A stretch of 64,000 nt of DNA from Aeromicrobium ginsengisoli (GTDB lineage Bacteria > Actinomycetota > Actinomycetes > Propionibacteriales > Nocardioidaceae), in NCBI RefSeq assembly GCF_004134905.2, contig NZ_SDPQ02000004.1:62001-126000 (forward strand), in the 5' to 3' direction. This document shows, piece after piece, positions 5,682 to 34,064 of this stretch (positions are counted from its first letter, which is position 1; the number at the start of each line of letters is the position of its first letter). The notes below the pieces were generated by a model that did no database searches, was not told the DNA's origin, and was given only the letters and a program-made list of their open reading frames with translations. The position numbers and the translations under genes were made by a program.

Positions 5682-5883
5682 GTGACTTGGGACATCGAGG
5701 AGGACAGGCTGCTGCGGGAGGTCGTGCCGTCGATGCGAGGCCGTGGCCGCGGAGCGGTCGTGAACCTGGTCAGCCCCGCGAACTCCGGGTGGTCGAAGGA
5801 CCCGGTGTCGACGGAGGGCGTGTCGCACACTCCTGAGCGCGGCGCGAGCCCAGTCAACATGCATTCCAAGACCCAACGAACCA

Positions 5884-5897
5884 TAGAATCTAAGGTG
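5884..5897 (+). promoter_or_regulatory. Putative -10 element TAGAAT and leaderless GTG start
   Basis: TAGAAT at 5884-5889 fits the actinobacterial TANNNT -10 box and ends five bases before GTG 5895. Transcription would start at or within a base or two of the GTG, giving a leaderless mRNA; no ribosome-binding site precedes this GTG. There is no convincing -35 box. Confidence 0.45.
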
Positions 5898-6815
5898 ACC
5901 GTGTTTCGTACCGCGTTCGACGAGAGCGACCTGCACAGCCACGTGGCTGACGAGGGCGACCAGATGTGGCAGGAGAGCTTCTGCATCGTCTGGCACGACC
6001 CGATCACGCAGAGCGGCGGCAACCACCACTTCAGCCTGTGGCGCAACCAGGGCATCGCCGACATCTGGAGCTGGGTCGTCGTCGAGGGCAAGGAGGTCGC
6101 CCGCGAGCAGGTGCACGACATCCCGATCCCCGACGAGGACTACGCCGACACCACGGTCGGCGGCATGCACGCGATCTGCGGCAACGACTTCCAGCACTAC
6201 ACGCTGGTGCACACCTTCGAGGGCTGCACCGTCACGATCAGGTACTCGGCCTACCTGCCGCCGGTCGAGCTCGACTACGCGAGCGGCGGGGCGTCCCTCG
6301 GCAAGCGGCACTTCGAGACGCTCGGCACGGTCGAGGTCACGGTGGAGCTCGGCGACCGCGTGCTCGACCTGACCGGCGTCGCGTTCCACGACCACTCCTG
6401 GGGCCACCGCGAGCTGGAGCGCAACCCCGCCGGCCAATGGATGTTCGGGGTGTTCGGACCCGACCTGATGGCGTCGGTCTACCTGCGCCAGACCGTCGAC
6501 GGGCCCAGCCAGGACGGCTGGGTCTACGACCACGGCGACCTCAAGCGGGTGCAGTCGGCGTCGGTGCAGGCGACGATCGCCGGCGACGGCCTCTACCCGC
6601 GTCGCGCGATCTTCGACGTGTGGACCGAGGGCGGCGGGCACCGGTTCACCGGCGAGCTCCAGGCTGGGGCCGTCGAGGGAGGCATCGGCCTGCTGGCCGG
6701 CGACGGCCTCATGACCTTCGAGTGCGGGGGACGCCTCGGTGGCGGCCTCGTCGAGCTCAAGCCGCTGCGCTTCGCCCTGCCCGAGCACCGAGCCGTCCTG
6801 CGGCTCCCGGATTGA
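5895..6815 (+). CDS. DUF7064/DUF7065-like protein (lipocalin/CrtC-type fold suspected)
   Basis: 306 residues from GTG 5895 (ATG 5859 in the same frame would add 12 residues; GTG is preferred because homologous-looking sequence starts at VTVFRTAFDESDLHSH and a -10 box lies just upstream). The N-terminal half has SFCIVWHDP and GGNHHFSLWRNQG; the C-terminal half has GVAFHDHSWGHRE, typical of a family of uncharacterised actinobacterial proteins related to hydroxyneurosporene synthase/AttH-like beta-barrels. There is no signal peptide. It is followed after 20 bases by a phosphotransferase gene, a pairing that suggests a shared small hydrophobic substrate. The enzymatic function is not known. Confidence 0.75.
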   Translation: MTVFRTAFDESDLHSHVADEGDQMWQESFCIVWHDPITQSGGNHHFSLWRNQGIADIWSWVVVEGKEVAREQVHDIPIPDEDYADTTVGGMHAICGNDFQHYTLVHTFEGCTVTIRYSAYLPPVELDYASGGASLGKRHFETLGTVEVTVELGDRVLDLTGVAFHDHSWGHRELERNPAGQWMFGVFGPDLMASVYLRQTVDGPSQDGWVYDHGDLKRVQSASVQATIAGDGLYPRRAIFDVWTEGGGHRFTGELQAGAVEGGIGLLAGDGLMTFECGGRLGGGLVELKPLRFALPEHRAVLRLPD

Positions 6816-6835
6816 CCCGACCGCGAGGAGACACC

Positions 6836-7909
6836 ATGACCAGCCCCACCGACGCCGTCGCGACGATCGACTTGCCCCGGTCGCTCGAGGACGTCACCGT
6901 CCCCTGGATGTCCGAGGCCCTCTCGGCCCGGTTCCCCGGCACCGTGGTCGCGTCGATGACCGAGGGATCGACCATCCGCGGCATGGCCACCAAGATCCAG
7001 CTGCACCTGACGTACGCCGACAACCCGCACGGCCTGCCGCCGTCGATGTGGCTCAAGACCGGCTTCGAGAAGCACAGCGAGCGGTCGGCCGAGCTCTATG
7101 CCGCCGAGGTCAACTTCTTCCGCGTCGTCGCTCCGGCCGTGCCCACCAACTCGCCACTGACGTTCTTCGAGGCGATCGACGGCGAGACCGGCAACGGCGT
7201 TCTGCTGATGGAGGACCTCACGCTGCGCGGCGTACGCTTCGGCGACCAGACCCAGCCGCTGACGCCCGACGTCGCCGCGTCGCTGCTCGACGTCCAGGCC
7301 CGCTACCACTCCTTCCTCGCCGAGTCAGCCGACGACCTCGACCTGTCATGGCTGACCGTCGGTGGCGCCATCCACTCCGTCGACGTCGCGGGCGAGTACC
7401 TCGAGTTCTGGGAGACCGCCTCGCAGGCGCCTCGGTTCCGGTTCGTGCCCGAGGAGCTCGGCGACCCCGTGCGCATCAAGGCCGGCCTAGACCGGATGAT
7501 CGCGAACGATCGGCAGGAGTCGCAGTGGCTCGTCCACGGCGACGTGCACCTGGGCAACGTCTTCTTCGACGACCAGGGCAACGGCGGCTTCCTCGACTGG
7601 CAGACCGTCATGCGGGGCACGTGGGCATTCGACGTCGCGTACTTCATCGTCGTGTCGCTCAGCGTCGAGGACCGGCGTGCCCACGAGCAGGACCTGCTGC
7701 GCACGTACCTCGCCCGCCTCGAGGAGTACGGCGGCCACGCGCCCAGCTTCGAGGACGCCTGGCTTGCCTACCGGCAGCACGTCATGTGGACGTTCCTCAT
7801 GGTGCTGTGCCCGGTCGAGCGGCAGGCCGAGGAGATCTGCACCGCGCACGCCGAGCGCATCTGCGCGGCCCTGGTCGACCTGCAGGTGCTGGAGTCACTG
7901 GGCGTCTAG
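6836..7909 (+). CDS. Phosphotransferase family protein (APH/choline-kinase fold)
   Basis: 357 residues. The kinase catalytic loop WLVHGDVHLGNVFFD lies near residues 232-246 and the metal-binding FLDWQ near 255, both as in APH/ecdysteroid-kinase-like enzymes. It probably phosphorylates a hydroxyl group of a small metabolite using ATP. ATG 6836 is preceded by GCGAGGAG. It is in one transcription unit with the DUF7064-like gene. Directly after its stop comes a relic of an unrelated transporter gene, so its original downstream neighbours may have been lost. Antibiotic resistance is not implied by the fold. Confidence 0.82.
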   Translation: MTSPTDAVATIDLPRSLEDVTVPWMSEALSARFPGTVVASMTEGSTIRGMATKIQLHLTYADNPHGLPPSMWLKTGFEKHSERSAELYAAEVNFFRVVAPAVPTNSPLTFFEAIDGETGNGVLLMEDLTLRGVRFGDQTQPLTPDVAASLLDVQARYHSFLAESADDLDLSWLTVGGAIHSVDVAGEYLEFWETASQAPRFRFVPEELGDPVRIKAGLDRMIANDRQESQWLVHGDVHLGNVFFDDQGNGGFLDWQTVMRGTWAFDVAYFIVVSLSVEDRRAHEQDLLRTYLARLEEYGGHAPSFEDAWLAYRQHVMWTFLMVLCPVERQAEEICTAHAERICAALVDLQVLESLGV

Positions 7910-12496: not shown

Positions 12497-12979
12497 TCAG
12501 TCGGCCGGCAGGAAGATCGCGAGCGGCGAGAACGGCTCATCGACCTGGTAGACGTCGTTGAACAGTGCGACGCCCTCGACCGTCAGCGCGACGTCGGTGG
12601 CCAGCCAGATGCGCAGGTCCTCGTTGGTGGGACGCGGCTCGAGGGTGAACCTGACGAGCGGTAGTCGGGTGTCGCCCTCGACGTCGCGCGGCTCGACGAC
12701 GGTCATTTCGCCGCGCCCGTCGGTGACCTTGACGAGCGGGTGCGCGATGCGGACGAACATCATGCCGGCGTGCGCCGCGAACCGCAGGTCGCCTCGGAAC
12801 GCGAACGTGCCGGCGTCGACGTCGGAGGCCTCGGGATCGGGCTCGAACACCATGACGTTGCCTTCGGTGGCGGTGACTCCGTCGTGCAGGCTGGCCCGGC
12901 CGTCGGGGGTACGTCCGACGTAGTCGAGGAAGCTCGACTTGATGCCCCAGTGCAGGCCGAGGTGCTGCTCGTCGCTCAC
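12497..12979 (-). CDS. HtaA-domain-like protein, cytoplasmic
   Basis: 160 residues. The N-terminal LGLHWGIKSSFLDYV matches the opening of HtaA (haem-transport-associated) domains, typically L-x-W-G-x-K-x-S-F-x-x-Y, followed by a beta-rich region (FAFRGDLRFAAHAGMMFV). Known HtaA proteins of corynebacteria are secreted and bind haem, but this one has no signal peptide or membrane anchor. It is convergent with the aldehyde dehydrogenase and 81 bases downstream of an SDR on the same strand. Haem binding is only suggested; a small-ligand-binding role beside dehydrogenases and P450s is the alternative. Confidence 0.7.
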   Translation of the reverse strand: MSDEQHLGLHWGIKSSFLDYVGRTPDGRASLHDGVTATEGNVMVFEPDPEASDVDAGTFAFRGDLRFAAHAGMMFVRIAHPLVKVTDGRGEMTVVEPRDVEGDTRLPLVRFTLEPRPTNEDLRIWLATDVALTVEGVALFNDVYQVDEPFSPLAIFLPAD

Positions 12980-13060: not shown

Positions 13061-13810
13061 TCAGTACAACCCGCCGTCGACCCGGATGAACGCCGCGGTC
13101 GTGAAGGACGAGTGTGGGCTGGCGAGGTACAGCGCCGTGGTGACCACCTCGTCGGGACGCCCCGGGCGTCCGACGCTGCTCTGCGTCGTGGTGCGAGCCT
13201 CCTCGCTCCAGTGCTCGGCGACGTCGGTGAGAAACGGCCCGGCCGACAGCGTGTTGACCCGCACGTTCGGCCCGTACTCGCGGGCGAACACGTGGGTCGA
13301 TGCGTTGAGGGCGGCCTTCGCGGCGGCGTAGGGACCGAACTCGGGCTTGGGCCGGATGCCTGCGAACGACGAGACGTTGATGATCGAGCCGCCGTCGCCG
13401 GCCGCCATGCGTGCCCCGATCAGCGCCGACAGGCGGAACGGCCCCTTGAAGTTGACGTCCATGACCTTGTCGATGAGCTCGGCCGTGGTGTCGACCGACG
13501 ACGGCGACAGCGGCGACATGCCGGCGTTGTTGACCAGCACGTCGACGTGGCCCATCTCGGCGTACGCGCGCTCGACCAGCGCGTCGATCTCGTCCCACCG
13601 GCCCACGTGGCACGCGACAGGCAGGGCGCGGCGACCCAGCGCCTCGATCTCGGCGGCGACCTCCTCGCACGCGTCGAGCTTGCGGCTCGTCACCACGACG
13701 TCGGCGCCGTGCTGGGCGTAGGCCAGCGCGATCTCGCGCCCCAGCCCGCGGCTGCCACCGGTGACCAGGGCGACCTTGCCCTCCAGCGAGAACAGGTCGG
13801 GACCGCTCAC
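13061..13810 (-). CDS. Short-chain dehydrogenase/reductase (SDR)
   Basis: 249 residues from GTG 13810. Classical SDR motifs in order: cofactor loop TGGSRGLG, VNNAG, catalytic Ser in NVSSFAG and Tyr/Lys in YAAAKAAL, and a C-terminal VDGGLY. GTG 13810 overlaps the stop of the upstream acyl-CoA dehydrogenase by four bases (GTGA), which decides the start over longer open frames. It likely oxidises a hydroxyacyl-CoA or alcohol produced in the same pathway as the dehydrogenase. Confidence 0.92.
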   Translation of the reverse strand: MSGPDLFSLEGKVALVTGGSRGLGREIALAYAQHGADVVVTSRKLDACEEVAAEIEALGRRALPVACHVGRWDEIDALVERAYAEMGHVDVLVNNAGMSPLSPSSVDTTAELIDKVMDVNFKGPFRLSALIGARMAAGDGGSIINVSSFAGIRPKPEFGPYAAAKAALNASTHVFAREYGPNVRVNTLSAGPFLTDVAEHWSEEARTTTQSSVGRPGRPDEVVTTALYLASPHSSFTTAAFIRVDGGLY

Positions 13811-15111
13811 AGATCCACCCCGGCCGCGGCGAGCGCGGCGGCGTGGTGCTCGCGGGCGGCGGCGAGGCGGGTCGGCACGTGCTCGCTCGGGAACAGGCCC
13901 GCGGCGGGCTGCTGGCCGCGGAGGACGCCCTTGGCGATCGTCGTACGGTGCACCTCGGTCGGGCCGTCGACGAGCCCGATGTGCGGGGCGCTGGACCACC
14001 AGCCGGCGAGCGGGGTCTCACGTGTCGTGCCCAGCGAGCCGTGTAGGTGGACGGCGCGCTGCAGGATGTCGTGCAGCACCTTGGCCATCTGCACCTTGCA
14101 CATCGCGATACCGGTGCGGGCCGCCCCGTGCGGCTGGGTGTCGATCGTCCAGGCGGTGTGCAGCACCAGCAGGCGCAGTTGTTGCAGCTCGATCCACGAC
14201 TCCGCGAGCATCGTCTGCACTGACTGCTTCTGGGCGAGCGTCGAGCCCTGCGTCGTGCGGGACACTGCCCGCTCCGTCATCATGTCGAAGATCCGGTGGC
14301 ACTTGCCGACCGTGCGCATCGCGTGGTGGATGCGGCCGCCCCCGAGACGGGCCTGGGCGACCTTGAAGCCCTCGCCGGGGCCGCCGAGCATATGGTCGGC
14401 CGGCACCCGGACGCCGGTGTAGCGGACGTACGCGTGGGTGCCCTCATCCTCGCGCGACTCGACGAACGTCGCGACGTTGCGGACGATCTCGACCCCGGGC
14501 GTCTCGGCCGGGACGATGAACATCGACATGCGCTGGTGCGGTCCCGCTTCGTCGTCGGTGACGGCCATGACGATGAGGAACGAGGCGTATCGGGCGTTCG
14601 ACGTGAACCACTTCTCGCCGTCGATGACCCACGAGTCGCCGTCCTGCCGGGCCCGGCACGTGAACTCCTTGGGGTCGGCGCCCGCGTGTGGTTCGGTCAT
14701 GGAGAACGCTGAGACGATATCGCCGTCGAGCAGCGGCTGCAGGTAGCGGTCCTTCTGCTCCTGCGTGCCGAACATCGCCAGGATCTCGGCGTTGCCGGTG
14801 TCGGGAGCGGCGGTGCCGAACACTGTCGGGGCCCAGTGCGACCGACCGAGCACCTCGTTGAGCAGGCCGAGCTTGAGCTGGCCGTAGCCGGGGCCGCCAA
14901 GGTCGGGGCCGAGGTGGCAGGCCCACAGGCGCTGCTCCTTGACCTTCTCGCGCAACGGGGCGATCACGGCTCGCGACACTTTGTTGCGGACGTCGTATGG
15001 CGCACCGCCGTCGGGAAAGACGAGGTCGAGGGTTTCGCACTCCTCACGCACGAACGTGTCGGCCCAGTCGAGCTTGGCTTGGAACTCGGGATCGGTGGAA
15101 AAGTCCCACAT
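13807..15111 (-). CDS. Acyl-CoA dehydrogenase
   Basis: 434 residues from ATG 15111. FAD/substrate-loop motifs FSMTEPHAGADP and WFTSNARYASF are present, and the C-terminal domain includes VHLHGSLGTTRETPLAGWW. It begins MWDFSTDPEFQAKLDWADTF, the usual alpha-helical N-terminus. A longer frame to 15249 would include the operator at 15194 and is rejected. It introduces an alpha-beta double bond into an acyl-CoA. Length is longer than the ~380 residues common in short/medium-chain members, resembling the FadE class acting on bulky substrates. Confidence 0.9.
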   Translation of the reverse strand: MWDFSTDPEFQAKLDWADTFVREECETLDLVFPDGGAPYDVRNKVSRAVIAPLREKVKEQRLWACHLGPDLGGPGYGQLKLGLLNEVLGRSHWAPTVFGTAAPDTGNAEILAMFGTQEQKDRYLQPLLDGDIVSAFSMTEPHAGADPKEFTCRARQDGDSWVIDGEKWFTSNARYASFLIVMAVTDDEAGPHQRMSMFIVPAETPGVEIVRNVATFVESREDEGTHAYVRYTGVRVPADHMLGGPGEGFKVAQARLGGGRIHHAMRTVGKCHRIFDMMTERAVSRTTQGSTLAQKQSVQTMLAESWIELQQLRLLVLHTAWTIDTQPHGAARTGIAMCKVQMAKVLHDILQRAVHLHGSLGTTRETPLAGWWSSAPHIGLVDGPTEVHRTTIAKGVLRGQQPAAGLFPSEHVPTRLAAAREHHAAALAAAGVDL

Positions 15112-15342: not shown

Positions 15343-16230
15343 ATGCGTCTCAAGGACAAGGTCGTCGTCATCACCGGTGCGGGTTCGGGTCTGGGACGCG
15401 TCTCGTCCCGGCTGTTCGCACAGGAGGGGGCGAGGGTCGTCATCACCGACATCTCCGAGGCGCGCGCCAAGGAGACGCTCGAGCAGGTGTTGGGCGACGG
15501 CAACGAAGCGATCGCCGTCAAGGCCGATGTCACGATCGAGTCCGAAGTCGAGGCCGCCGTGCAGGCGGCCGTCGACACCTACGGACGCCTCGACGTCATG
15601 TTCGCCAATGCGGGCATCCCGGCCAAAGGATTCGGTTCCGCGGCGCTGGAAAACATCACCGAGGAGGAGTGGGACGAGACCAACGACGTGGTCCTTAAGG
15701 GCGTCTTCTTCTCCGTCAAGCACGCAGTCCGGGCGATGAAGAACAACCCCGGCGGTCCTGCCGGCAGCTCGATCATCTGCACCTCATCGGCCGCCTCGAT
15801 GGCCGGCTACCCCGGCTTCCCGCAGTACGGCGCGGCCAAGGGTGGTATCAACGCGTTCGTCCGCCTGTGCGCCGCGTGGGAGATCGGCAAGTACGGCATC
15901 CGCATCAACGCGATCTGCCCCACGCACGGCATGTCGGCCAACTTCATCCTGCCAGGCGATGCGCCGGTGCTCGGCAAGTCGCACGAAGAGATGCAGGGCG
16001 AATGGATCAAAGAGCACTCGCCGATCCCGCTCAAGCTCGACCGCGCCCCGAACTTGCTCGACAACGCCTACCCGGCGCTATTCCTCGCCTCCGACGAGTC
16101 GATGTACATGTCGGGCGTCTCGATCCCGATCACCGACGGAGGCACACTGGCCACAGTGGCCATCCCGTTCGGTGACAACTGGCGCGAGGACCTCTACGGG
16201 AACGCCTCGGGGGAGGCGCAGCAGGCATGA
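15343..16230 (+). CDS. Short-chain dehydrogenase/reductase (SDR)
   Basis: 295 residues. ATG 15343 has a strong AGGAGGAG site five bases upstream, preferred over in-frame codons from 15226. The cofactor loop is TGAGSGLG near residue 11, with MFANAG, the catalytic Ser in CTSSAAS, and YGAAKGG. A ~25-residue insertion around AICPTHGMSANFILPGDAP and an extended C-terminus make it longer than a classical SDR. It overlaps the ferredoxin gene by four bases (ATGA) and is co-transcribed with a P450, so it probably oxidises the alcohol produced by that P450. Confidence 0.93.
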   Translation: MRLKDKVVVITGAGSGLGRVSSRLFAQEGARVVITDISEARAKETLEQVLGDGNEAIAVKADVTIESEVEAAVQAAVDTYGRLDVMFANAGIPAKGFGSAALENITEEEWDETNDVVLKGVFFSVKHAVRAMKNNPGGPAGSSIICTSSAASMAGYPGFPQYGAAKGGINAFVRLCAAWEIGKYGIRINAICPTHGMSANFILPGDAPVLGKSHEEMQGEWIKEHSPIPLKLDRAPNLLDNAYPALFLASDESMYMSGVSIPITDGGTLATVAIPFGDNWREDLYGNASGEAQQA

Positions 16231-16439
16231 GACAGCAGCGCCCGCCAGTCGAGATCGATCGCGATCTGTGCGTCGGTCACGGCCGCTGCTACAACAAGGC
16301 GCCGGGACTGTTCTACGCAGACGACATGGGTCTCGGGCATGTCAAGGACGTCATCGATGACAACGCCACCCCGCCTGACCTGGCGCGCATCATCCGGGCT
16401 TGTCCCGAAAGCGCCATCCACCTGACCGCGACGAGCTAG
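16227..16439 (+). CDS. Small [3Fe-4S]-type ferredoxin with CxxHxxC motif
   Basis: 70 residues. Cluster ligands are C15 and C21 in LCVGHGRCYNKAPGLF and C59 in ACPESAI; the position that is Cys in [4Fe-4S] proteins is His18, the actinobacterial P450-ferredoxin variant. It passes electrons from a reductase to the P450 encoded ten bases downstream. Translation is coupled to the SDR by an ATGA overlap. The reductase partner is not adjacent. Confidence 0.93.
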   Translation: MRQQRPPVEIDRDLCVGHGRCYNKAPGLFYADDMGLGHVKDVIDDNATPPDLARIIRACPESAIHLTATS

Positions 16440-16449
16440 GAGACCACGC

Positions 16450-17682
16450 ATGACCGACACCGCCATCGACATCGAGGCACTGCGTGCGTCGCACGCGCGC
16501 CAGTACGACCCCTACAGCACGGCGACGATCCAGGAGCACCTCGACGACATCGCCGACCGCCGCGAGAACCTGCCGATGTCCTTCTCGGAGAAAGGCGGCT
16601 TCTGGCTCGCCACGACGTACGACGACATCGCCGGCATGCTGCGGCGCAACAACAAGGGCTTCATCAGCTTCCCGAACATCCCCGACGGGGTCCTCGCCTT
16701 CGGCCAGAAGCGGCAGATCCCGATCGAGCTCGACGGCCCGATTCACGCGCAGTATCGCAAGCTGCTCGACCCCCTGTTCTCGCCGTCGAAGGTCAAGGGC
16801 ATGGAGGAGCAGGTCCGCCAGATCGCGATCGACCTCATCGCCGGCTTCGCCGACAAGGGCGAGGTGGACCTCGTCCCCGAGTTCGCGTTCCCGTTCCCGG
16901 GGACGGTGTTCCTGTCGGTCATGGGGTGGCCCGTCGAGGACGCCGACATGATGAACAAGTGGGTCGGCGCCTTCCTGCACGGCGTGCCCGGTGGCACCGA
17001 GGAGGAGACCCTCGCGGCGCGCGTCGACGCGAGTGAGAAGTCGCGCGCGTACATCCAGGCGATTGTCGACGACCGACGCGCCAACCCGCGCGACGACATC
17101 ACGACCGCGATCGTGCAGGCGGAGTTCGACGGCGAGCCGATCCCGGACGAGGACCTTTCTGACCTGTTCATCCTGCTGATGATGGCCGGCCTCGACACGA
17201 CGGCCAGCGTCATCGCCCAGAGCATGGCGTACTTCGCCAAGAACCCCGCCAAGTGGGATGAGATGTTCGCCGACCCTGACGACATCGACGCCGCGGTCGA
17301 GGAGCTGCTGCGCTGGACGTCGCCAGCTGTGCCGACGCGCAACGTCGCCGACGAGTCGGCCGAGGTCGGTGGCCTCGAACTGCCTAAGGGCGAGCGCATC
17401 CACTGCCCGCTGGCCGCCGCGAATCGCGATCCGAAGTACTACCCGGACCCCGACGAGATCCAGTTCGACCGCGACCCGCATCCGCACCTGACCTTCAGCC
17501 TGGGCACGCACCGGTGCATCGGCGTCCACCTGGCCCGCCAGGAGCTCCGCATCGCATTCGAGGAGCTGCGCCGCGTCATGCCGACGTTCCGGCTCGCCGA
17601 CGGCGTCGAGCCCAAGGAGCACCTGTCGCTTACCTGGGGCGTCGAGGACGTACGCCTGGTCTTCACGCCGCAGGATTCGTAG
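16450..17682 (+). CDS. Cytochrome P450
   Basis: 410 residues. I-helix oxygen-activation motif AGLDTT is near residue 246, ExxR as EELLR near 287, and the haem loop FSLGTHRCIGVHLAR carries the thiolate ligand C356. It has no membrane anchor, as expected for a soluble bacterial class I P450. With its own ferredoxin and an SDR in one operon, it probably hydroxylates a hydrophobic substrate, whose product is then oxidised by the SDR. The substrate (terpenoid, steroid or fatty acid) cannot be assigned from sequence alone. Confidence 0.95.
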   Translation: MTDTAIDIEALRASHARQYDPYSTATIQEHLDDIADRRENLPMSFSEKGGFWLATTYDDIAGMLRRNNKGFISFPNIPDGVLAFGQKRQIPIELDGPIHAQYRKLLDPLFSPSKVKGMEEQVRQIAIDLIAGFADKGEVDLVPEFAFPFPGTVFLSVMGWPVEDADMMNKWVGAFLHGVPGGTEEETLAARVDASEKSRAYIQAIVDDRRANPRDDITTAIVQAEFDGEPIPDEDLSDLFILLMMAGLDTTASVIAQSMAYFAKNPAKWDEMFADPDDIDAAVEELLRWTSPAVPTRNVADESAEVGGLELPKGERIHCPLAAANRDPKYYPDPDEIQFDRDPHPHLTFSLGTHRCIGVHLARQELRIAFEELRRVMPTFRLADGVEPKEHLSLTWGVEDVRLVFTPQDS

Positions 17683-17763: not shown

Positions 17764-19413
17764 ATGACGCCCCCCGTCGAGACCCTCGTCGACGAGCCGA
17801 GGAGCTACGGCTTCCTCCAGCTCTGGGACGCGGTCGCCACGTCGATCCCCGACCGTGAGTGCATCGTGCAGGGTGAGCGCCGGCTCACGTGGTCGCAGGT
17901 CGCAGACCGTACGACGCGGCTGGGCTGGTGGCTGACCGGGCTGGGCATCGGCGCCCGTCCGGGGCCCATCGACGACTGGCAGTCGCCCAACGACCTCGTG
18001 GGCCTGCTGATGCGCAACAGCTCCGAGTACCTCGAGGCGAGCCTTGCCGGGTATCGGTCGCGCTGCGCACCGTTCAACGTCAACCACCGCTACCAGGCCG
18101 AAGAGCTCGCGTACCTGCTGACCGACGCGCGCCCGTCGGCCATCGTCTACCACCTCGAGTTCGCCCCCGTACTCGCCGAGGCGGCCCGGGTCGCGGGCGT
18201 CGACCTGCCGCACCTGATTCACGTGCCCGACGCGTCTGGGGAGCAGCCGCTGCCCGGCTCGGTGGCGTACGACGACGCCCTCGCGCAGGCGGTGGAGCCG
18301 ACCGAGCCCGTCGAGCCGAGCCCCGACGACGTCCACGTCCTCTATACCGGTGGCACCACAGGGATGCCCAAGGGCGTCATCTGGCGCCAGCGCGAGCTCG
18401 CCGGACGCACGTGCGGCATCACGGTCAAGTCGCTCGAGGCGGCACACGCCGACGCCCCGCGCCGGGCGTGGCTGCGGGCGTACCCGGCCCCGCCGCTGAT
18501 GCACGGCACCTCGTCGTGGTTCTCTTACGGCGCGTGGTCGCGCGGCGGCACGATCGTCCTGTCGGAGGACCACAGCTTCGATGCCGTGCGGGCGCTCGAG
18601 CTCATGCGCGACGAGAGCGTGGCCCACCTGGCCATCGTGGGCGACGCGTTCGCACAGCCGCTGCTGCGGGCGCTGGCCGACGGTGAGGAGCCGCCGTCGA
18701 CTCTGAAGTACGTCTTCTCCAGCGGTGCCGCACTCGCGTCGACAGCGTGGGCCGAGCTCGACCGATACTTCCCGGGCCTACAGCTCGTCAACGCCCTCGG
18801 GTCGTCCGAGACGGGACCTCAGGCGGTCAAGACCAGCAGCGGTCAGAGCCAGTTCTCGGCCGGGCCCGACACGATCGTGGTCAGCGAGGACTACTCGACC
18901 CTGCTGTCGGCGGACAACCCCGGCACGGGCTGGCTTTCCAACGGCGGCGACATGCCGCGCGGCTACCTCAATGACGAGACCCGCACCGCCGGGACGTTCC
19001 GCGTGATCGAAGGACGTCGCCTGTCGGTGTCGGGCGACCGGGCCGCGGTCGACGAGACCGGCGCCATCACGTTCCTCGGCCGCGAGTCGGGCGTCATCAA
19101 CTCCGGCGGCGAGAAGATCTACGGCGAGGAGGTCGAGCAGGTGCTGCTCTCCCTGCCCGAGGTCGACGAGGCCTTGGTCTTCGGCCGGCCCAGCGAGAAG
19201 TGGGGCCAGGAGGTCGTCGCGCTGCTCGTGTCGAACACCGGCCAGCGCCTCGGTCGTGACGACTTGCGTGCTGCGTGCGGTGACCGGCTCGCCGGCTACA
19301 AGGTGCCCAAGCAGGTGGCGTGGGTCGACGCGATCCGCCGCCACAACAACGGCAAGGCCGACTACGCGTGGGCGCGCGAGACGATCGAGGGGCTGCTCGA
19401 GGTCTCAGCATGA
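17764..19413 (+). CDS. AMP-forming acyl-CoA synthetase (FadD-like)
   Basis: 549 residues from ATG 17764 (GGAG just upstream). AMP-binding P-loop YTGGTTGMPKG is near residue 195; adenylate-site segments NALGSSETG and SVSGDRAAV and the C-terminal hinge/lysine region NNGKADY follow. It activates a carboxylic acid with ATP and CoA. The kinase gene follows with a 4-base overlap and an SDR after that, so the three act on related intermediates. The long N-terminal half and the SSGAALA motif resemble ligases for bulky (terpenoid/steroid side-chain) acids, which is inference. Confidence 0.93.
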   Translation: MTPPVETLVDEPRSYGFLQLWDAVATSIPDRECIVQGERRLTWSQVADRTTRLGWWLTGLGIGARPGPIDDWQSPNDLVGLLMRNSSEYLEASLAGYRSRCAPFNVNHRYQAEELAYLLTDARPSAIVYHLEFAPVLAEAARVAGVDLPHLIHVPDASGEQPLPGSVAYDDALAQAVEPTEPVEPSPDDVHVLYTGGTTGMPKGVIWRQRELAGRTCGITVKSLEAAHADAPRRAWLRAYPAPPLMHGTSSWFSYGAWSRGGTIVLSEDHSFDAVRALELMRDESVAHLAIVGDAFAQPLLRALADGEEPPSTLKYVFSSGAALASTAWAELDRYFPGLQLVNALGSSETGPQAVKTSSGQSQFSAGPDTIVVSEDYSTLLSADNPGTGWLSNGGDMPRGYLNDETRTAGTFRVIEGRRLSVSGDRAAVDETGAITFLGRESGVINSGGEKIYGEEVEQVLLSLPEVDEALVFGRPSEKWGQEVVALLVSNTGQRLGRDDLRAACGDRLAGYKVPKQVAWVDAIRRHNNGKADYAWARETIEGLLEVSA

Positions 19414-20465
19414 CGGCTGAGGCGTCCGCGCCGTCGATCGACGTCACGGCCCTCGGGCCCTGGCTGGACGAGGCGGGTCTGCCCGGTGCGGGCGACGAGC
19501 TGACGATCACGCCGCTCACCGGCGGCGCGTCCAACGAGGTCTACCGGCTCGAGCGCGGGGGCGCTGCGGTGGTGCTGCGCCGCCCGCCCGCCCACGCGGT
19601 CGAGGAGCGCTCGGCGACTATGATGCGCGAGGCACGCGTGCTTGGTGCGCTGGCCGACACCGCGGTGCCGCACGCCCGGCTGCTCGGGTCGTGCGAGGAC
19701 GCCTCGGTGATCGGCTCGGCGTTCTACGTGATGGAGCTCGTCGACGGCTGGTCGCCGATGTCGGCAGGTTCGCGCGGGCCGGTCCCGTTCGACACCGACC
19801 ATGAGGCGCGGGCCGGGCTGGGACGCGAGATCGTCCGTGGCATAGCCGAGCTGGCGTCGGTCGACTGGCGCGCGGCGGGACTCGAGGGCTTTGGACGTCC
19901 CGATGGCTTCCACGACCGGCAGGTGCCGCGGTGGACGTCGTTCCTCGACAAGGTCGCGTTCCGGGACATCCCGGGCCTCGACGCGGCCGGGCGGTGGCTG
20001 ACCACGCACCGTCCCCGCACGTGGGAGCCGGGCATCATTCACGGCGACTACTCGTTCGCCAACGTCATGTTCGGGCACGGCACCCCGCCGCGGCTTGCCG
20101 CGATCGTCGACTGGGAGATGGCCACGATCGGCGACCCGCTGCTCGACCTGGGCTGGCTGCTCATGCGCTGGCCCAGCCCCGACGGACCCCGGCCGACCGG
20201 CTCGTTCGACATGGACGGCATGCCCACGCCTGCCGAGGTGCTCGACCTGTACTCCACGGTGTCGGGGCGTCCCGTCGACGAGATTGACTACTACCTGACC
20301 TTGGCCTGCTTCAAGAACGCGATCGTGCTCGAGGCAGGCTTCGCCCAGTACATGAAGGGCGACGCCGACAACCCCAAGATGGCCCTGTTCGGCGACATGG
20401 TGCTCGAGATGGCCGAGCTGGCCGCCCGGGTCAGTGCTGGGTCGTCGCTGCCCAGCGCGGGCTGA
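19410..20465 (+). CDS. Phosphotransferase family protein, ACAD10/LvaA-like acyl-CoA kinase candidate
   Basis: 351 residues. N-terminal PLTGGASNEVYRL is the nucleotide-binding loop, IIHGDYSFANVMF the catalytic loop near residue 212, and AIVDWEMATIGDPLLDLGW the metal site. This DWEMATIGDP form is typical of the kinase family that includes the N-terminal domain of human ACAD10/11 and bacterial LvaA, which phosphorylate hydroxyacyl-CoAs. Coupling to an acyl-CoA synthetase (ATGA overlap) and closeness to acyl-CoA dehydrogenases support such a role, but it is not proven. Confidence 0.87.
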   Translation: MTAEASAPSIDVTALGPWLDEAGLPGAGDELTITPLTGGASNEVYRLERGGAAVVLRRPPAHAVEERSATMMREARVLGALADTAVPHARLLGSCEDASVIGSAFYVMELVDGWSPMSAGSRGPVPFDTDHEARAGLGREIVRGIAELASVDWRAAGLEGFGRPDGFHDRQVPRWTSFLDKVAFRDIPGLDAAGRWLTTHRPRTWEPGIIHGDYSFANVMFGHGTPPRLAAIVDWEMATIGDPLLDLGWLLMRWPSPDGPRPTGSFDMDGMPTPAEVLDLYSTVSGRPVDEIDYYLTLACFKNAIVLEAGFAQYMKGDADNPKMALFGDMVLEMAELAARVSAGSSLPSAG

Positions 20466-20477
20466 ACGGACCGGTCG

Positions 20478-21281
20478 ATGGCTAACGACGAGGTCCCGTT
20501 CCGGGTGGGTGACGCCCCGGTCATCGACCTCGCCGGGCACGTCTCGGTCGTCACGGGGGGCAACAGCGGCATCGGCCTGGGCATCGCTCGAGGCCTGGTG
20601 CGCGCCGGCGCCGACGTCGCCGTCGTGGGCAGGGACGAGGAGCGCAACACCACAGCCGTGGCCGAGCTCGCCGCCGTGGGCGGAGGCACGGCCTGGGCCT
20701 ACCACTGTGACGTGTCGGACGAGGCCGAGGTGGTGCGGACCATGGCGCAGACGAGGTACGACCTCGGGCCGATCCGGTCGCTGTTCGCCTCGGCCGGCGT
20801 GCCGAGCTCCGGGTCCGCGTTCGTCGACCTGACGCTCGACGACTTCCGTCGCGTCCTCGCGGTCAACCTCGAAGGCGCGTTCCTGTGCTTCCGCGAGGCG
20901 GCGCGGCACATGGTGCACGACGAGGTGTCGGGAAGCCTGGTCGCGATCGCGAGCCTGTCGGCCGTGCACGGGCAGTCCCGCGGCCAGAGCTACTCGGCCA
21001 GCAAGGGCGGTCTCGTGGCGATGGTGCGCGCGTGCGCGGTCGAGCTGGCCCGCGATGGTATCCGCGCCAACGTGATCCTGCCTGGAGCATTCGACACGCC
21101 CATGGCCGCACCGTTCCAGCGCACCGAGGCGTGGGACGCGAAGATCAGGCCGCGCATCCCGCAACGGCGCCCCGGCCACGCCGACGAGGTGGCGGGTGCC
21201 GCGGTGTACCTGGCGTCACAGGCTTCGGCGTACCACACAGGCGACACTCTGGTGATCGATGGCGGCTACTCGGTCTACTGA
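20478..21281 (+). CDS. Short-chain dehydrogenase/reductase (SDR)
   Basis: 267 residues. TGGNSGIGLG, catalytic Ser in IASLSAVHG, YSASKGG and the terminal IDGGYSVY are all present. It begins 12 bases after the kinase and ends the three-gene ligase-kinase-SDR unit. Likely a 3-hydroxyacyl-CoA or alcohol dehydrogenase using NAD(P)H. Its end overlaps by seven bases the end of a decayed MFS gene on the opposite strand. Confidence 0.92.
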   Translation: MANDEVPFRVGDAPVIDLAGHVSVVTGGNSGIGLGIARGLVRAGADVAVVGRDEERNTTAVAELAAVGGGTAWAYHCDVSDEAEVVRTMAQTRYDLGPIRSLFASAGVPSSGSAFVDLTLDDFRRVLAVNLEGAFLCFREAARHMVHDEVSGSLVAIASLSAVHGQSRGQSYSASKGGLVAMVRACAVELARDGIRANVILPGAFDTPMAAPFQRTEAWDAKIRPRIPQRRPGHADEVAGAAVYLASQASAYHTGDTLVIDGGYSVY

Positions 21282-21980: not shown

Positions 21981-24290
21981 GTGAGTGACGCAGCGTCGCG
22001 CGACGACGAGGTCCGCGAGGCCGCACTGGCAGGTGTGAGGGTCGTCGAGATCGCCACCGGGCTGGCTGCGCCAGCCGCCACTCGCCTCCTCGCGGAGGCC
22101 GGGGCCGACGTCGTGAAGGTCGAGTCGCTCGACGGCGACCCCACGCGTGAGCGTCACCCCGCGGCCTTCGCGTCGTGGAACCGCAGCAAACGGTCCGTCG
22201 TCCTGGACGTCGACTCCGCCGACGGACTCGAGGGCGTCCACACCCTGATCGACCTCGCCGACGTGGTCGTGCACGACCTTCCGGCCGCCCGCGCCACGGC
22301 GCTCAGCCTCGACACCGCGTCGGTCACCGAGCGTCATCCGGGCGTCGTCGTGGCGTCCGTCCCCGCCTACCCCGTGGGCCATCCCCGCGCCGACGACGAC
22401 GTTTCCGACTCACTCGTGCAGGCCGCCGAGGGTCTGATGGACGAGCAGCAAGGTCACCGCGAGGGGCCCGTGTTCGTGCGCATCCCGTACTCCAGCTGGT
22501 CGGCTGCCTACCTCCTCGCCGCCGGCACCGTGGCGCGCCTGGTGCAGCGCGAGCGCACCGGTTTGGCGTTGCCCATCTCGACGAGCCTGTTCCAGGGCGC
22601 GCTGTCGGCTGCGGCCCTCTACTGGCAGCGCTGGGAGCGGCTGCCGGAGACGCTGACCCGCCACACGCTGCCCAAGATCGACCCCGACGCCGCACTCAGC
22701 ATCTTCGAGTGCTCCGACCACCGCTGGGTGCAGCTCGCCGGAGCTGTCGGCGGCTGGATCGAGTCGCCGCCGGTGCTCGAGGCCCTGGCGCTGATGGATC
22801 GGGTCGAGCTGTCCGAGATCGGTGTCACCCGCGCCAACCAGGAGCAGTGGAACGAGGTGTTCCGCCAGCACGACAGCGAGTGGTGGAGCGCCGTGCTCGC
22901 CGAGGCCGACGTGCCGTGCATGATCGTTCGCGAGCTGGGGGAGTGCTTCACGTCCGACCAGGCCGCGGTCAACGACTACGTGGTCGAGGTCGACGACGCT
23001 GTCGTGGGCAAGGCCCTGCAGGCCGGCCCGACGGTGCACACCACGCCCCGCAGCGTCGTTCGCTCCGCGGCCCCCGCGCTCGGAGCGTCCACGCTCGACG
23101 ACGTCCGCGCCAGCTGGGCCGTCGCCCCGACGCGTCCGGTCGCACCCACCGCGCTGCCGGCCGACACGCGCCCACTTGCCGGGCTGCGTGGGCTCGACTT
23201 CGGCACGGCGATCGCCGGGCCGTTCGGGGCCCAGTGCCTGTCCGACCTCGGCGTCGACGTCGTCAAGGTCGAGCCACTGCGCGGCGACCGCGGCCGGGTG
23301 CTGACGCAGTTCGCCGGCAGCCACCGCGGCAAGCGCGCCATCGCACTCGATCTCAAGAACCCCGCCTCGCGTCCGATCCTCGACGGCCTGCTCGAGCGCT
23401 GCGACGTCGTGCTGCACAACATGCGCCTCGCCCCGGCCTCGCGCCTCGGCCTCGACGGTCCAGGCCTTCGGGCCACCAACCCGCGCATCGCGTTCAGCCA
23501 CGTCAGCGCCTACGGCCCGGCCGGCAACATGGCCGCGCTGCCCGGGTACGACCCTACCGCCCAGGCGTTCACGGGCTGGGAGCACGCGATCGCTGGCGAG
23601 GGCAACCCGCCCGTGTGGCTGCGCAGCTCGGTGTTCGACGTCCAGGCCGGCCTCGCCAGCGCGTTCGGTGCCGTCGTCTCCCTGTTCCAGCGCGAGCGCA
23701 CCGGGCTGCCCGGCGACGCCGCCACGTCACTGCTCGCCGTCGGCATCACCGCGTCGTCCGAGCTGGTCGTCGACCCCGTGACAGGGCAGGCCAGCGAGAT
23801 CGAGGTGCTCGATGCCGGCCAGCACGGCCTGTCCGACACCCACCGCATCTACCAGCTGGCCGACGGCTGGATCGCCGTCGCCGCCCTGGCGGCCGACGAA
23901 CAGGCCGCGTTTCGCGACGTCGTCGGAGCGGGCGACCCGGCCGACGCGCTGGCAGGACGTTCCGTCGCCGCGACGCTGGCCGCGATGGCCGAGGCGGGCG
24001 TGCCCGCGAGCCCTGTGCGCCTCGACCAGCTCGACGCGTTCCACGACAACCCGGTGCACCACACGCTCGGCGTCAGCCGCACGCTGCAGACCCCTGGCTT
24101 CGGCCAGATCGACCTCGTCGGCGGCTGGTGGGACTTCGGGCCCGCCCCGGCCGACGAGTCGGTGCCGGCTCTCGGCCAGCACACCCACGAGGTCCTGCGC
24201 GAGCTGGGCCTCGACACCGACGCCGTCGAGTCGCTGCTCGCGGACGGCGTCATCGGCGTGGCGCCCCGCGTCCCCACCCTGTCGGACTGA
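21981..24290 (+). CDS. Two-domain family III CoA transferase (CaiB/BaiF type)
   Basis: 769 residues, about twice the usual ~400. Two CaiB-like domains are seen: residues ~15-370 (VRVVEIATGLAAPAATRLLAE, ADVVKVES) and ~395-760 (LRGLDFGTAIAGPFGAQCLSD, VDVVKVEPLRGDRGR). The second contains PGYDPTAQAFTGW, where the family's catalytic Asp lies; in the first the equivalent region reads DSLVQAAEGL, also with an Asp. The start is GTG 21981. It transfers CoA between acyl-CoA and a free acid. A P450 gene follows after 14 bases. Confidence 0.9.
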   Translation: MSDAASRDDEVREAALAGVRVVEIATGLAAPAATRLLAEAGADVVKVESLDGDPTRERHPAAFASWNRSKRSVVLDVDSADGLEGVHTLIDLADVVVHDLPAARATALSLDTASVTERHPGVVVASVPAYPVGHPRADDDVSDSLVQAAEGLMDEQQGHREGPVFVRIPYSSWSAAYLLAAGTVARLVQRERTGLALPISTSLFQGALSAAALYWQRWERLPETLTRHTLPKIDPDAALSIFECSDHRWVQLAGAVGGWIESPPVLEALALMDRVELSEIGVTRANQEQWNEVFRQHDSEWWSAVLAEADVPCMIVRELGECFTSDQAAVNDYVVEVDDAVVGKALQAGPTVHTTPRSVVRSAAPALGASTLDDVRASWAVAPTRPVAPTALPADTRPLAGLRGLDFGTAIAGPFGAQCLSDLGVDVVKVEPLRGDRGRVLTQFAGSHRGKRAIALDLKNPASRPILDGLLERCDVVLHNMRLAPASRLGLDGPGLRATNPRIAFSHVSAYGPAGNMAALPGYDPTAQAFTGWEHAIAGEGNPPVWLRSSVFDVQAGLASAFGAVVSLFQRERTGLPGDAATSLLAVGITASSELVVDPVTGQASEIEVLDAGQHGLSDTHRIYQLADGWIAVAALAADEQAAFRDVVGAGDPADALAGRSVAATLAAMAEAGVPASPVRLDQLDAFHDNPVHHTLGVSRTLQTPGFGQIDLVGGWWDFGPAPADESVPALGQHTHEVLRELGLDTDAVESLLADGVIGVAPRVPTLSD

Positions 24291-24304: not shown

Positions 24305-25525
24305 GTGTCCAAAGAACCGGTCATCACGTTCGACCACCACTCTGCCGAGTTCGCCCACGACTCGGTGCAGCGCTTCGCCGAGCTGCGGTCGCGGGACGTC
24401 CCGCTGGGCTTCACCGAGAGCCACGAGGGCTTCTGGGTCGCATCGAGCTACGAGCTGGTGCGCGAGATCCTCAGCGACAACGACACGTACACGGTCGAGC
24501 GCAGCGCGGACGGCACCAAGGGCGGGAAGCTCATCCCCACTTCGGCCAAGGCGCCGGCGATCATCCCCGGCATCCTCGACGGCGAGCCGCACGACCGCCT
24601 GCGTCGTCCGCTGCGCTCGCTGTTCGCCAAGCCCAACATCGAGCGCACCGTCGCCCCCGTCGCCAAGCAGCTCGTCAGCGACCTTCTCGACCAGGTCGTG
24701 CCGCTCGAGGAGTTCGACTTCGCGACCGGCTTCAGCTTCAGCCTCACGGTCAACACGATCTTCGAGTTCGTGGGCCTGGCCGAGGTGGAGGACCGGGAGA
24801 AGTTCATCCTGATGCTCGAGGACGCCTTCGCGATCGACCCTGAGATCGGCGCCGATCGTGACGCGCTCGCGGGGTCGACCTCGGTGCAGTTCGCCGCGGC
24901 GTCCGACCTGGTGCGCGACGTCGTGCGGGCGCGCGTGGCCGACCCCACCGAGGACCTCATCTCCAAGATGGCGGCACCCGGCACCGACCTCACCGAGGAC
25001 GACGTCGTGGCGCTGACGCTGTCGATCATCCTCGGTGGTGTCCGTACGACCGCCGCCTCGCTCGACAACATGGTCGAGCACCTCGCGAGCCACCCCGACC
25101 TGCGCGACGAGCTGCGTGAGGACCCGTCGCTCATTCCGTCGGCCGTTGAGGAGATGCTTCGCCTGTTCACAGTGACCCCGCTGGTGGCGCGCACCGTCAC
25201 CACCGAGACGGAGCTCGGCGGCGTCACCCTCCACGTGGGCGACCGCGTCGCCGCGGTGCTGGCGCTCGCCAACCTCGACGAGGACCAGTTCCCCGACCCG
25301 CTCGAGGTCGACACCGACCGCAGCGACGGCATGCACGTGACATTCGGCCTGGCCACGCACTACTGCCTCGGTCTGTGGCTTGCGCGTATGGAGCTGCGCA
25401 TCGCCCTTGAGGGCATCCTCGAGCGTATGCCGTCGTATGAGGTGGTCACCGAGCGGGCGCAGCGGTTCAGCCGGCTCGGGGTCAACAACGGATACGCGCA
25501 CCTGCCGGTCCGCCCCAACGTCTGA
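24305..25525 (+). CDS. Cytochrome P450 with unusual haem-loop residue
   Basis: 406 residues from GTG 24305 with GAGGAG upstream; the much longer open frame from 22175 is a shadow of the CoA transferase gene. ExxR is EEMLR. The I-helix motif is LGGVRTTAA, keeping the Thr pair but with Arg where an acidic residue is usual. The haem loop reads FGLATHYCLGLWLAR with ligand C354; the Gly four residues before Cys in the family pattern F-x-x-G-x-x-x-C-x-G is Ala here. No ferredoxin is adjacent. It probably acts on the same substrate family as the CoA transferase. Confidence 0.93.
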   Translation: MSKEPVITFDHHSAEFAHDSVQRFAELRSRDVPLGFTESHEGFWVASSYELVREILSDNDTYTVERSADGTKGGKLIPTSAKAPAIIPGILDGEPHDRLRRPLRSLFAKPNIERTVAPVAKQLVSDLLDQVVPLEEFDFATGFSFSLTVNTIFEFVGLAEVEDREKFILMLEDAFAIDPEIGADRDALAGSTSVQFAAASDLVRDVVRARVADPTEDLISKMAAPGTDLTEDDVVALTLSIILGGVRTTAASLDNMVEHLASHPDLRDELREDPSLIPSAVEEMLRLFTVTPLVARTVTTETELGGVTLHVGDRVAAVLALANLDEDQFPDPLEVDTDRSDGMHVTFGLATHYCLGLWLARMELRIALEGILERMPSYEVVTERAQRFSRLGVNNGYAHLPVRPNV

Positions 25526-32897: not shown

Positions 32898-34064
32898 ATG
32901 ATGGAGGATGCGGTGGACTTCAAGGACTCCGAGCGCAGCGCAGCGTTGCGCCAGGACCTCAGGGGGCTTGTCTCCGATGCCGTGCCTGAGACGTTCCTCG
33001 GGGCGTTCACCAGCGACCCGAAGGACCTTGAGCTCGCGCAGTCGTTCTGCCGGCTCCTGGCCAAGAAGGGTCAGCTGACGCCGGCCTGGCCCGTCGAGTA
33101 CGGCGGATCGGCCTCGAGCCAGTGGGAGCAGACCGTCGTCCGCGAGGAGATGTGGGCGCACTTCGAGCCCCGCGGCGCGCAGTACATGGGCGTCAACTGG
33201 GTCGGCCCGGCCATCATGCGCTTCGGCACCGACATCCAGAAGGCCGAGCACCTCGGCCGCATCGCCTCCGGCGATGTCATCTGGTGCCAGGGCTTCTCCG
33301 AGCCCGAGTCAGGTTCCGACCTCGCCTCGCTGCGCACGGCCGCGATCGCCGATGGTGGCGGCTGGCGGATTGAGGGCCAGAAGGTCTGGACGTCGTACGC
33401 GACCATGGCGGACTGGTGCTTCCTGCTGGCCCGCACGACCCGCGGCGAGAAGAAGCACCACGGCATCACGGTCTTTCTCGTGCCCATGGACCGCCCCGGC
33501 ATCCGCGTCGTCCCGATCAAGGCCATGGTCGGTCCCCACCACCTCAACGAGGTGTTCTTCGAGGGCGTCAAGGTCGGCCCTGAGGACGTCCTCGGCGAGG
33601 TCGACGGTGGCTGGAACATCGTCCGCGAGGCCCTCGCCTTTGAGCGCGTGGGCATCGCCCGCTACGCCCGCTGCGACCGCCTGCTCAACCTCGCGCCGTC
33701 CGCGCTCGGCGACCGCTGGGATGGCCTGCCGATCGAGCTGAAGCAGCGCTGGGCTGCGGCGCTCCTCCACGTCCGTCAGGCTCGCTTGCTGGCGTACCGA
33801 GTCATCGAGATGCAGGAGACCGGGGCGGTGGACCCGGCCGACGCCGCGGCGTACCGCATCGCGGCGACGACGGCCGACCAGGAAGCCGCCGAGGTGCTGA
33901 TGGACATGCTCGAAGAGCGCGCCGTCGGGGCCGAGAAGCCCACCGACCTGTTCGACCGCGCCGTTGACGACCACTGGCGCTATGCCCAGGCGGCGACCGT
34001 CGCGTCGGGAAGCATCGAGGTGCAGCGGATGCTGCTCTCGCGATCACTGCTGAGGACGTCATGA
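32898..34064 (+). CDS. Acyl-CoA dehydrogenase, full-length subunit of a probable heteromeric pair
   Basis: 388 residues. Motifs WCQGFSEPESGSDLASL and VWTSYATMADWCFLLAR form the flavin/substrate core, with DVLGEVDGGWNIVREALAFER at the start of the C-terminal domain and SGSIEVQRMLLSRSLLR at the end. Start is ATG 32898 or the adjacent ATG 32901 (GGGAG upstream). It overlaps by four bases a shorter ACAD gene. Such adjacent pairs in mycobacteria form alpha2-beta2 enzymes (ChsE-type) that act on bulky CoA esters such as steroid side chains. Confidence 0.92.
   Translation: MMEDAVDFKDSERSAALRQDLRGLVSDAVPETFLGAFTSDPKDLELAQSFCRLLAKKGQLTPAWPVEYGGSASSQWEQTVVREEMWAHFEPRGAQYMGVNWVGPAIMRFGTDIQKAEHLGRIASGDVIWCQGFSEPESGSDLASLRTAAIADGGGWRIEGQKVWTSYATMADWCFLLARTTRGEKKHHGITVFLVPMDRPGIRVVPIKAMVGPHHLNEVFFEGVKVGPEDVLGEVDGGWNIVREALAFERVGIARYARCDRLLNLAPSALGDRWDGLPIELKQRWAAALLHVRQARLLAYRVIEMQETGAVDPADAAAYRIAATTADQEAAEVLMDMLEERAVGAEKPTDLFDRAVDDHWRYAQAATVASGSIEVQRMLLSRSLLRTS

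Follow-up and report, generated by a model that had tools for sequence, protein, structure and literature searches.

Which reaction does a phosphotransferase encoded directly behind an acyl-coenzyme A (CoA) ligase catalyze, and with which partner? The question is raised by a stretch of 64,000 nucleotides of Aeromicrobium ginsengisoli (contig NZ_SDPQ02000004.1, positions 62,001 to 126,000), called the window below, in which the gene of an acyl-CoA ligase overlaps that of a kinase. Comparison of the window with related loci makes it quite probable that this kinase and an acyl-CoA dehydrogenase (ACAD) encoded 4.3 kb away form a split, two-gene module predicted to dehydrate gamma-hydroxyacyl-CoA within an island of cytochrome P450 (P450), ligase and beta-oxidation genes. 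The three genes central to this reading, with the basis of their naming in brackets, are the following:

17764..19413, plus strand: acyl-CoA ligase (AMP-forming), 549 amino acids (Pfam AMP-binding and AMP-binding_C; NCBIfam PRK07798)
19410..20465, plus strand: ACAD11 (LvaA-like) kinase, 351 amino acids (Pfam APH, phmmer to PDB, residue mapping, model)
13807..15111, minus strand: ACAD11/LvaC-type acyl-CoA dehydrogenase, 434 amino acids (phmmer to 8v3u, residues, tree)

Identity of the kinase and the dehydrogenase

The reading frame of the kinase gene extends from an ATG at 19410 to a stop at 20465, and its product matches the Pfam domain APH with 153 bits. In a phmmer search of the PDB, 3dxp (166 bits) and 9o56 (160) rank first, followed by the kinase moiety of mouse ACAD11 (128 and 124), and the next match reaches 31 bits; the E values are 1.4e-47 for 3dxp and 5.4e-36 for ACAD11, 1.2e-6 for Rv3168 (3ats) and 5.8e-6 for the 25-hydroxysteroid kinase (25-HSK), and apart from those to 3dxp and 9o56, entries for which no substrate is given, all matches other than ACAD11 have E values of 1.2e-6 or worse. 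Regarding functional residues, D213, N218 and R170 of the kinase correspond to D220 (the catalytic Asp), N225 (the helper Asn) and R176 (an Arg in contact with CoA) of ACAD11, and these positions are invariant across 22 aligned kinases. R73-E74 aligns with an Arg-Glu pair at the alphaC helix of ACAD11; the CoA-contacting Arg beside the alphaC glutamate is numbered R86 in the ACAD11 paper (PMC12440821), while under the numbering consistent with D220 position 86 is a Phe two places past that Arg. Its APH fold, catalytic residues and sequence place the kinase among the ACAD11 (LvaA-like) kinases, and the ACAD10/LvaA-like assignment of a preliminary description of this DNA is borne out by the nearest PDB relatives (3dxp, 9o56 and ACAD11) and by the conserved Asp, Asn and CoA-contacting Arg. 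The string DWEMATIGDP (residues 234-243), which that description had used as a mark of the family, was rejected as a signature, being weak and not diagnostic: mouse ACAD11 has DWELSTFGHP at this place.

The AlphaFold model of the kinase (predicted local distance difference test score 90.7) finds 3dxp as its best fold match (Z 33.4), followed by 25-HSK (9fsg and 9ft5, Z 26.2 and 25.9) and Rv3168 (3ats, Z 25.5); ACAD11 chains are absent among the best 50 matches listed in each of two fold searches, and the sequence search finds ACAD11 easily. The rank of 25-HSK as second-best fold match favors an alternative with a 25-HSK-like kinase, whose substrate would be a terpenoid or steroid alcohol in free (non-CoA) form that a lyase dehydrates after phosphorylation, and in which the ACAD would be incidental; 25-HSK is reported to be up to 46% identical to actinobacterial phosphotransferases (PMC8449060). 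Against this, 25-HSK is remote from the kinase by sequence, its match falling far behind those of ACAD11 and 3dxp and covering a partial stretch (136-304) only, and its fold match is clearly weaker than that of 3dxp.

The dehydrogenase lies on the opposite strand from the kinase and matches ACAD11 (8v3u) with an E value of 4e-75 and 256.7 bits, compared with 156.3 bits for the ordinary ACAD 4u83. Its residues R255, R260, H263, R266 and D382 correspond to R626, R631, H634, R637 and D753 of ACAD11, so that all five are kept; in ACAD11, R626, H634 and R637 hold the phosphate, R631 has a general role and D753 is catalytic (PMC12440821). Phylogenetic analysis places the dehydrogenase in an ACAD11-type clade of 20 rows that includes mouse ACAD11 and is set apart from ordinary ACADs with a support of 97 in the Shimodaira-Hasegawa-like approximate likelihood ratio test (SH-aLRT), a quick method and the only support computed, with several rows on long branches. 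Inside this clade, the window ACAD falls in a clade of nine rows (98), sister to a clade of ten rows (98) with mouse ACAD11 and 4hr3. The preliminary description had proposed activation, phosphorylation and loss of phosphate, a sequence of steps that needs an LvaC/ACAD11-type enzyme; such an enzyme, which the description did not name, is found at 13807-15111 with all phosphate-handling residues and is linked to kinases throughout the family.

The source genome (4.0 Mb, seven contigs) contains three kinases of this type (E 0.001), and an equal number of its ACADs fall in the ACAD11 clade. Among 30 places with ACAD candidates, which include the window as well as pieces of one gene or neighboring pieces, 27 were aligned (L029, L031 and L032 were unaligned, and L014 and L033 were unreadable at the residue columns), and all five residues were detected only in the window ACAD and in L005. 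The kinase L002 and the ACAD L005 group with an adjacent pair of Nocardioides sp. CER19 and are probably a general kinase-ACAD pair, judging from this grouping, which is unlinked in the A. ginsengisoli genome itself. The genome has a second kinase-ACAD pair, L003 and L006 (C2:607785-609947), in which the ACAD has a Tyr in place of the phosphate-binding His; this pair may act on another substrate or be altered.

Both halves of the system are present and linked, and for this reason the chemistry of ACAD10 and ACAD11 is the best reading of the reaction. In ACAD10/11 and in LvaA/LvaC the 4-hydroxyl of an acyl-CoA is phosphorylated and the phosphate is then eliminated, the product of ACAD10/11 being a 2-enoyl-CoA and the flavin adenine dinucleotide having to be redox-active despite the lack of a net redox change (PMC12440821; PMC11342911); a bacterial kinase and a bacterial ACAD, as separate proteins, can take the place of the ACAD10 halves (PMC11342911). 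In the proposed pathway, a carboxylic acid would be converted to its CoA thioester, probably by the CoA ligase encoded at 17764, and a gamma-hydroxyl would be set either by a P450 or by a short-chain dehydrogenase/reductase (SDR) reducing a gamma-ketone, the type of group on which LvaD acts (PMC6692424). The kinase would use ATP to phosphorylate the gamma-hydroxyl of the acyl-CoA, and the ACAD11-type flavoenzyme would take hydrogens from the alpha and beta positions, expel the phosphate from the gamma carbon and return the hydride, giving a 2-enoyl-CoA. This product would be oxidized by hydratases and thiolases of the island, with further ACADs and a double CaiB-type transferase completing the degradation.

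Linkage of kinase and dehydrogenase across genomes

Linkage was analyzed for 34 places of related ACADs outside the window and the genome G028, taken with their flanks in 33 regions. The five residues are kept in all 34, and a kinase of the superfamily lies within 6 kb of 32 and within 300 bases of 25, compared with 1 of 20 controls (Fisher 2e-11); the controls are regions around relatives of one ACAD family, that of the ordinary window ACAD at 40008-41153, and are 20 of 27 places (G000 and G028 set aside) chosen by eye, with G060, G063, G113, G165, G184, G193 and G236 omitted. Seen from the kinase, 15 of 37 loci in public genomes are flanked by an ACAD11-type ACAD, which has all five residues in 13 and is cut short in two (L038 and L067). 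The window kinase falls in a clade of nine rows with an SH-aLRT support of 92, below the mark of 95, and in seven of the eight other loci of this clade an ACAD is present within 5 kb. The only close kinase without an ACAD is L040, whose contig stems from the same metagenome-assembled genome as L037 and ends within the kinase gene. Among ten neighborhoods compared, nine share the ACAD cluster and eight the kinase cluster (the open reading frame filter having left out the L038 kinase), and every other gene cluster spans three at most. Similarly, the four plasmid loci inspected among 290 matched records (two from Rhodococcus, one from Sphingomonas and one from Streptomyces) all pair a kinase with an ACAD having all five residues, under annotations that read just "phosphotransferase family protein" and "acyl-CoA dehydrogenase". 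The residue signature, the clade and these linkage statistics oppose the view that an ordinary dehydrogenase and a resistance or salvage kinase have come to lie near each other by chance, a reading that draws on the breadth of the APH fold and on a Pfam assignment that says only 'phosphotransferase', and that we regard as highly improbable.

What is conserved is the pair of kinase and ACAD, rather than that of kinase and ligase. The ligase reading frame runs from an ATG at 17764 to a stop at 19413, and the overlap of four bases with the kinase gene given in the preliminary description is confirmed (ATGA, 19410-19413); in the locus L034 of Nocardioides mangrovicus, the named organism with the nearest relative of this kinase, the homologous pair (68% identity for the ligase and 71% for the kinase) also overlaps by four bases (GTGA, with a candidate GTG start). 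This ligase was seen beside the kinase only in the window, in G028 and in N. mangrovicus, which are syntenic, and the genomes G184 and G236, with a kinase of 56% identity, gave no match to the window ligase at an E value of 1e-60. For these reasons the coupling of ligase and kinase is a trait of the island and lies outside the module; of the ligase-kinase unit described earlier, the overlap stands, while the partnership with the ligase is not constant.

Across 245 genomes of the family, a relative of the ACAD (E 1e-120 or better) was detected in 30 and an ortholog of the kinase (1e-80) in four, in searches that scored only some candidates per genome (seven or eight), so that copies may be missed. 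Compared with the window, G028 has 71% identity in the kinase (over the same residue span as in the N. mangrovicus match), 68% in the ligase and 79% in the ACAD. The nearest ACADs after that of G028 are L089-L091 (71-74% identity), which are accompanied by the same SDR (72-74%). Since these close ACAD-SDR relatives adjoin a divergent kinase, the ACAD appears to be the stable part of the module and the kinase to be exchanged between lineages.

Several observations weigh against the proposed module. In the window, 4.3 kb separate the kinase gene from the ACAD gene, which lies on the other strand, and the kinase beside L089-L091 is of a different lineage (29-33% identity to any kinase queried), so that the window kinase is not the sole partner of such ACADs. 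No kinase was found at two of the 34 related ACADs, and an ACAD11-type ACAD was not found in the flank examined of 22 of the 37 kinase loci, 21 of which have at most 40% identity and many of which are short contigs. In the family, at the cut-offs used, genomes with the ACAD far outnumber those with the kinase ortholog (30 compared with 4 of 245). A search of the source genome for PF19802, which we take to be LvaB, found nothing. Lastly, the window ACAD has the motif HAMR where ACAD11 has HCMR. The Ala is found in 31 and the Cys in three of the 34 ACAD relatives, and the residues named as contacting the phosphate in ACAD11 do not include the Cys (PMC12440821), for which reason it is not treated as defining. 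Nor does HAMR serve as a marker of the clade, a use that was rejected since three relatives have the Cys and 4hr3, which has HAMR, groups with ACAD11.

A different setting was observed in the Frankia loci L043, L044, L048, L050 and L069, where kinases of 37-39% identity are encoded near P450, SDR and aldehyde dehydrogenase genes with no ACAD11-type ACAD in the flank examined; this kinase family may serve a further purpose there.

The surrounding island and candidate substrates

The kinase gene belongs to an operon of P450 and ligase genes that is divergent from the ACAD and its adjoining SDR (SDRa). The further genes of the island considered here are:

13061..13810, minus strand: SDRa, overlapping the stop of the ACAD gene by GTGA (Pfam adh_short_C2 on a longer frame)
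15343..16230, plus strand: SDR at the head of the operon that diverges from the ACAD, 84% identity in L034 (NCBIfam SDR models)
16227..16439, plus strand: small ferredoxin beside the P450 (Pfam Fer4_15)
16450..17682, plus strand: cytochrome P450, nearest relatives including CYP125MRCA, CYP101D, CYP124 and CYP142 (phmmer to PDB)
20478..21281, plus strand: SDR directly 3' of the kinase (NCBIfam SDR models)
21981..24290, plus strand: CaiB-type CoA-transferase with two CaiB halves in one chain of 769 amino acids, 62% identity in L034 (NCBIfam CoA-transferase models on both halves)
24305..25525, plus strand: second cytochrome P450, CYP142-like (phmmer to PDB)
5682-7909: DUF7065/DUF7064 protein followed by a kinase of the EcKL (ecdysteroid-kinase-like) type, which gives the island a second small-molecule kinase, from a different family

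A relative of SDRa with at least 48% identity was detected in 19 of the 33 family regions, making it a recurrent third partner, and SDRa is a possible LvaD-like 4-oxoacyl-CoA reductase. The L034 locus, compared over 21 kb, is largely syntenic with the window, with some window genes missing and one SDR located elsewhere; the best L034 match of the SDR at 20478..21281 adjoins an aldehyde dehydrogenase instead. The island also contains genes resembling enoyl-CoA hydratases and thiolases, most of them named from reading translations, and further ACADs. Regarding the ligase, its nearest model is the acyl-CoA synthetase PRK07798 of NCBIfam (531.9 bits, slightly below the cut-off of 543), a family that presumably takes in steroid-side-chain ligases such as FadD19. 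The second, different phosphotransferase that the preliminary description had placed at 6836 is real and of another type: the product of 6836-7909 matches EcKL with 64, APH with 66 and DUF1679 with 40 bits, and no PDB relative was found at an E value of 0.01. Elsewhere in the window, a stand-alone HtaA-domain protein of 160 amino acids (12497-12979) adjoins an aldehyde dehydrogenase, and adjacent ACAD genes (32898-35020), one of them short and one related to 4x28 and Tcur3483, which we take to be steroid-pathway enzymes, resemble what are presumably the alpha/beta pairs of steroid degradation.

A sterol-specific island is suggested by the CYP125/124/142-like P450s, by the ACAD related to 4x28 and Tcur3483 and by the presence of KshA in the source genome. 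However, KshA is only slightly more frequent among genomes that carry an ACAD of this clade (18 of 30, compared with 76 of 215; Fisher p 0.015). Among the four genomes with this kinase, only that of the window has KshA, which was not found in G028, G184 and G236; whole sterols are disfavored because G028, which has the island, and likewise G184 and G236, lack KshA, and the sterol-specific reading is weakened. The same P450s and the KshA of the genome also speak for the 25-HSK-like reading of the kinase, whereas its linkage to ACAD11-type ACADs and the lack of KshA in three of the four kinase-bearing genomes speak against it, and we consider that reading unlikely.

The ligase, kinase, ACAD and SDRs of the island also fit the roles of LvaE, LvaA, LvaC and LvaD (PMC6692424), which would make it an actinobacterial lva operon for levulinate or 4-hydroxyvalerate. 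This is quite improbable: a C5 acid does not call for the pair of P450s, the double CaiB transferase or the additional ACADs of the island, the ligase is nearest PRK07798, the genome gave no match to PF19802, and the L002 kinase and the L005 ACAD, the latter within the clade that holds ACAD11, are better candidates for a general pathway even though they are unlinked. The region analyzed in Pseudomonas citronellolis yielded no lvaB (PMC6692424).

Returning to a gamma-hydroxyacyl-CoA dehydration module, the nearest solved relatives of the P450s and of the 4x28-related ACAD make a branched isoprenoid or the side chain of a sterol attractive as its substrate; our best guess is branched or cyclic isoprenoid-type acids. 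A more specific proposal, which we advance only tentatively, is that the island represents a module that is sister to ACAD11/LvaC as a clade, can exchange its kinase and is devoted to bulky branched or cyclic acids, in which a P450 or ketoreductase would set the gamma-hydroxyl and kinase-driven dehydration would let beta-oxidation pass an otherwise impassable position.

Relation to known systems and biological meaning

Compared with mammalian ACAD10/ACAD11, the window proteins have the same catalytic residues, the kinase scoring 128 bits with the kinase part of mouse ACAD11 and the ACAD 257 bits with the ACAD domain, but are encoded by two separate genes on opposite strands, with the ACAD in a sister clade and HAMR in place of HCMR. 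The lva operon of Pseudomonas putida similarly has a separate kinase and ACAD (LvaA and LvaC) together with ligase and SDR roles (PMC6692424), whereas the window island is rich in P450s and its genome has no PF19802 match, the comparison having been made via ACAD11 and the literature. The 25-HSK of Sterolibacterium (9fsg, 9ft5) shares the logic of kinase-driven dehydration and the APH fold, but its substrate is a tertiary steroid alcohol in free form (PMC8449060), and it is far less similar in sequence to the window kinase. Rv3168 (3ats) is a relative by APH fold, but with an E value of 1.2e-6 only, and the position of the CoA-contacting Arg is not an Arg in the alignment.

The chemistry and the family are already known. 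Among the titles and opening lines of abstracts of the open-licence literature searched, no assignment of this actinobacterial kinase-ACAD pair was found, nor any account of the pairing of this ACAD clade, of its separation from ACAD11 proper or of its setting in a P450 island. If the tentative proposal above is true, the island would be the first assigned module of this sort in isoprenoid-type degradation, as far as the literature searched goes. The comparisons suggest that the kinase part has been swapped between lineages while the ACAD was retained. The linkage together with the five diagnostic residues would make it possible to rename such kinases and ACADs across many actinobacterial genomes, and provides a testable prediction of how bacteria get past gamma-hydroxyls during degradation.

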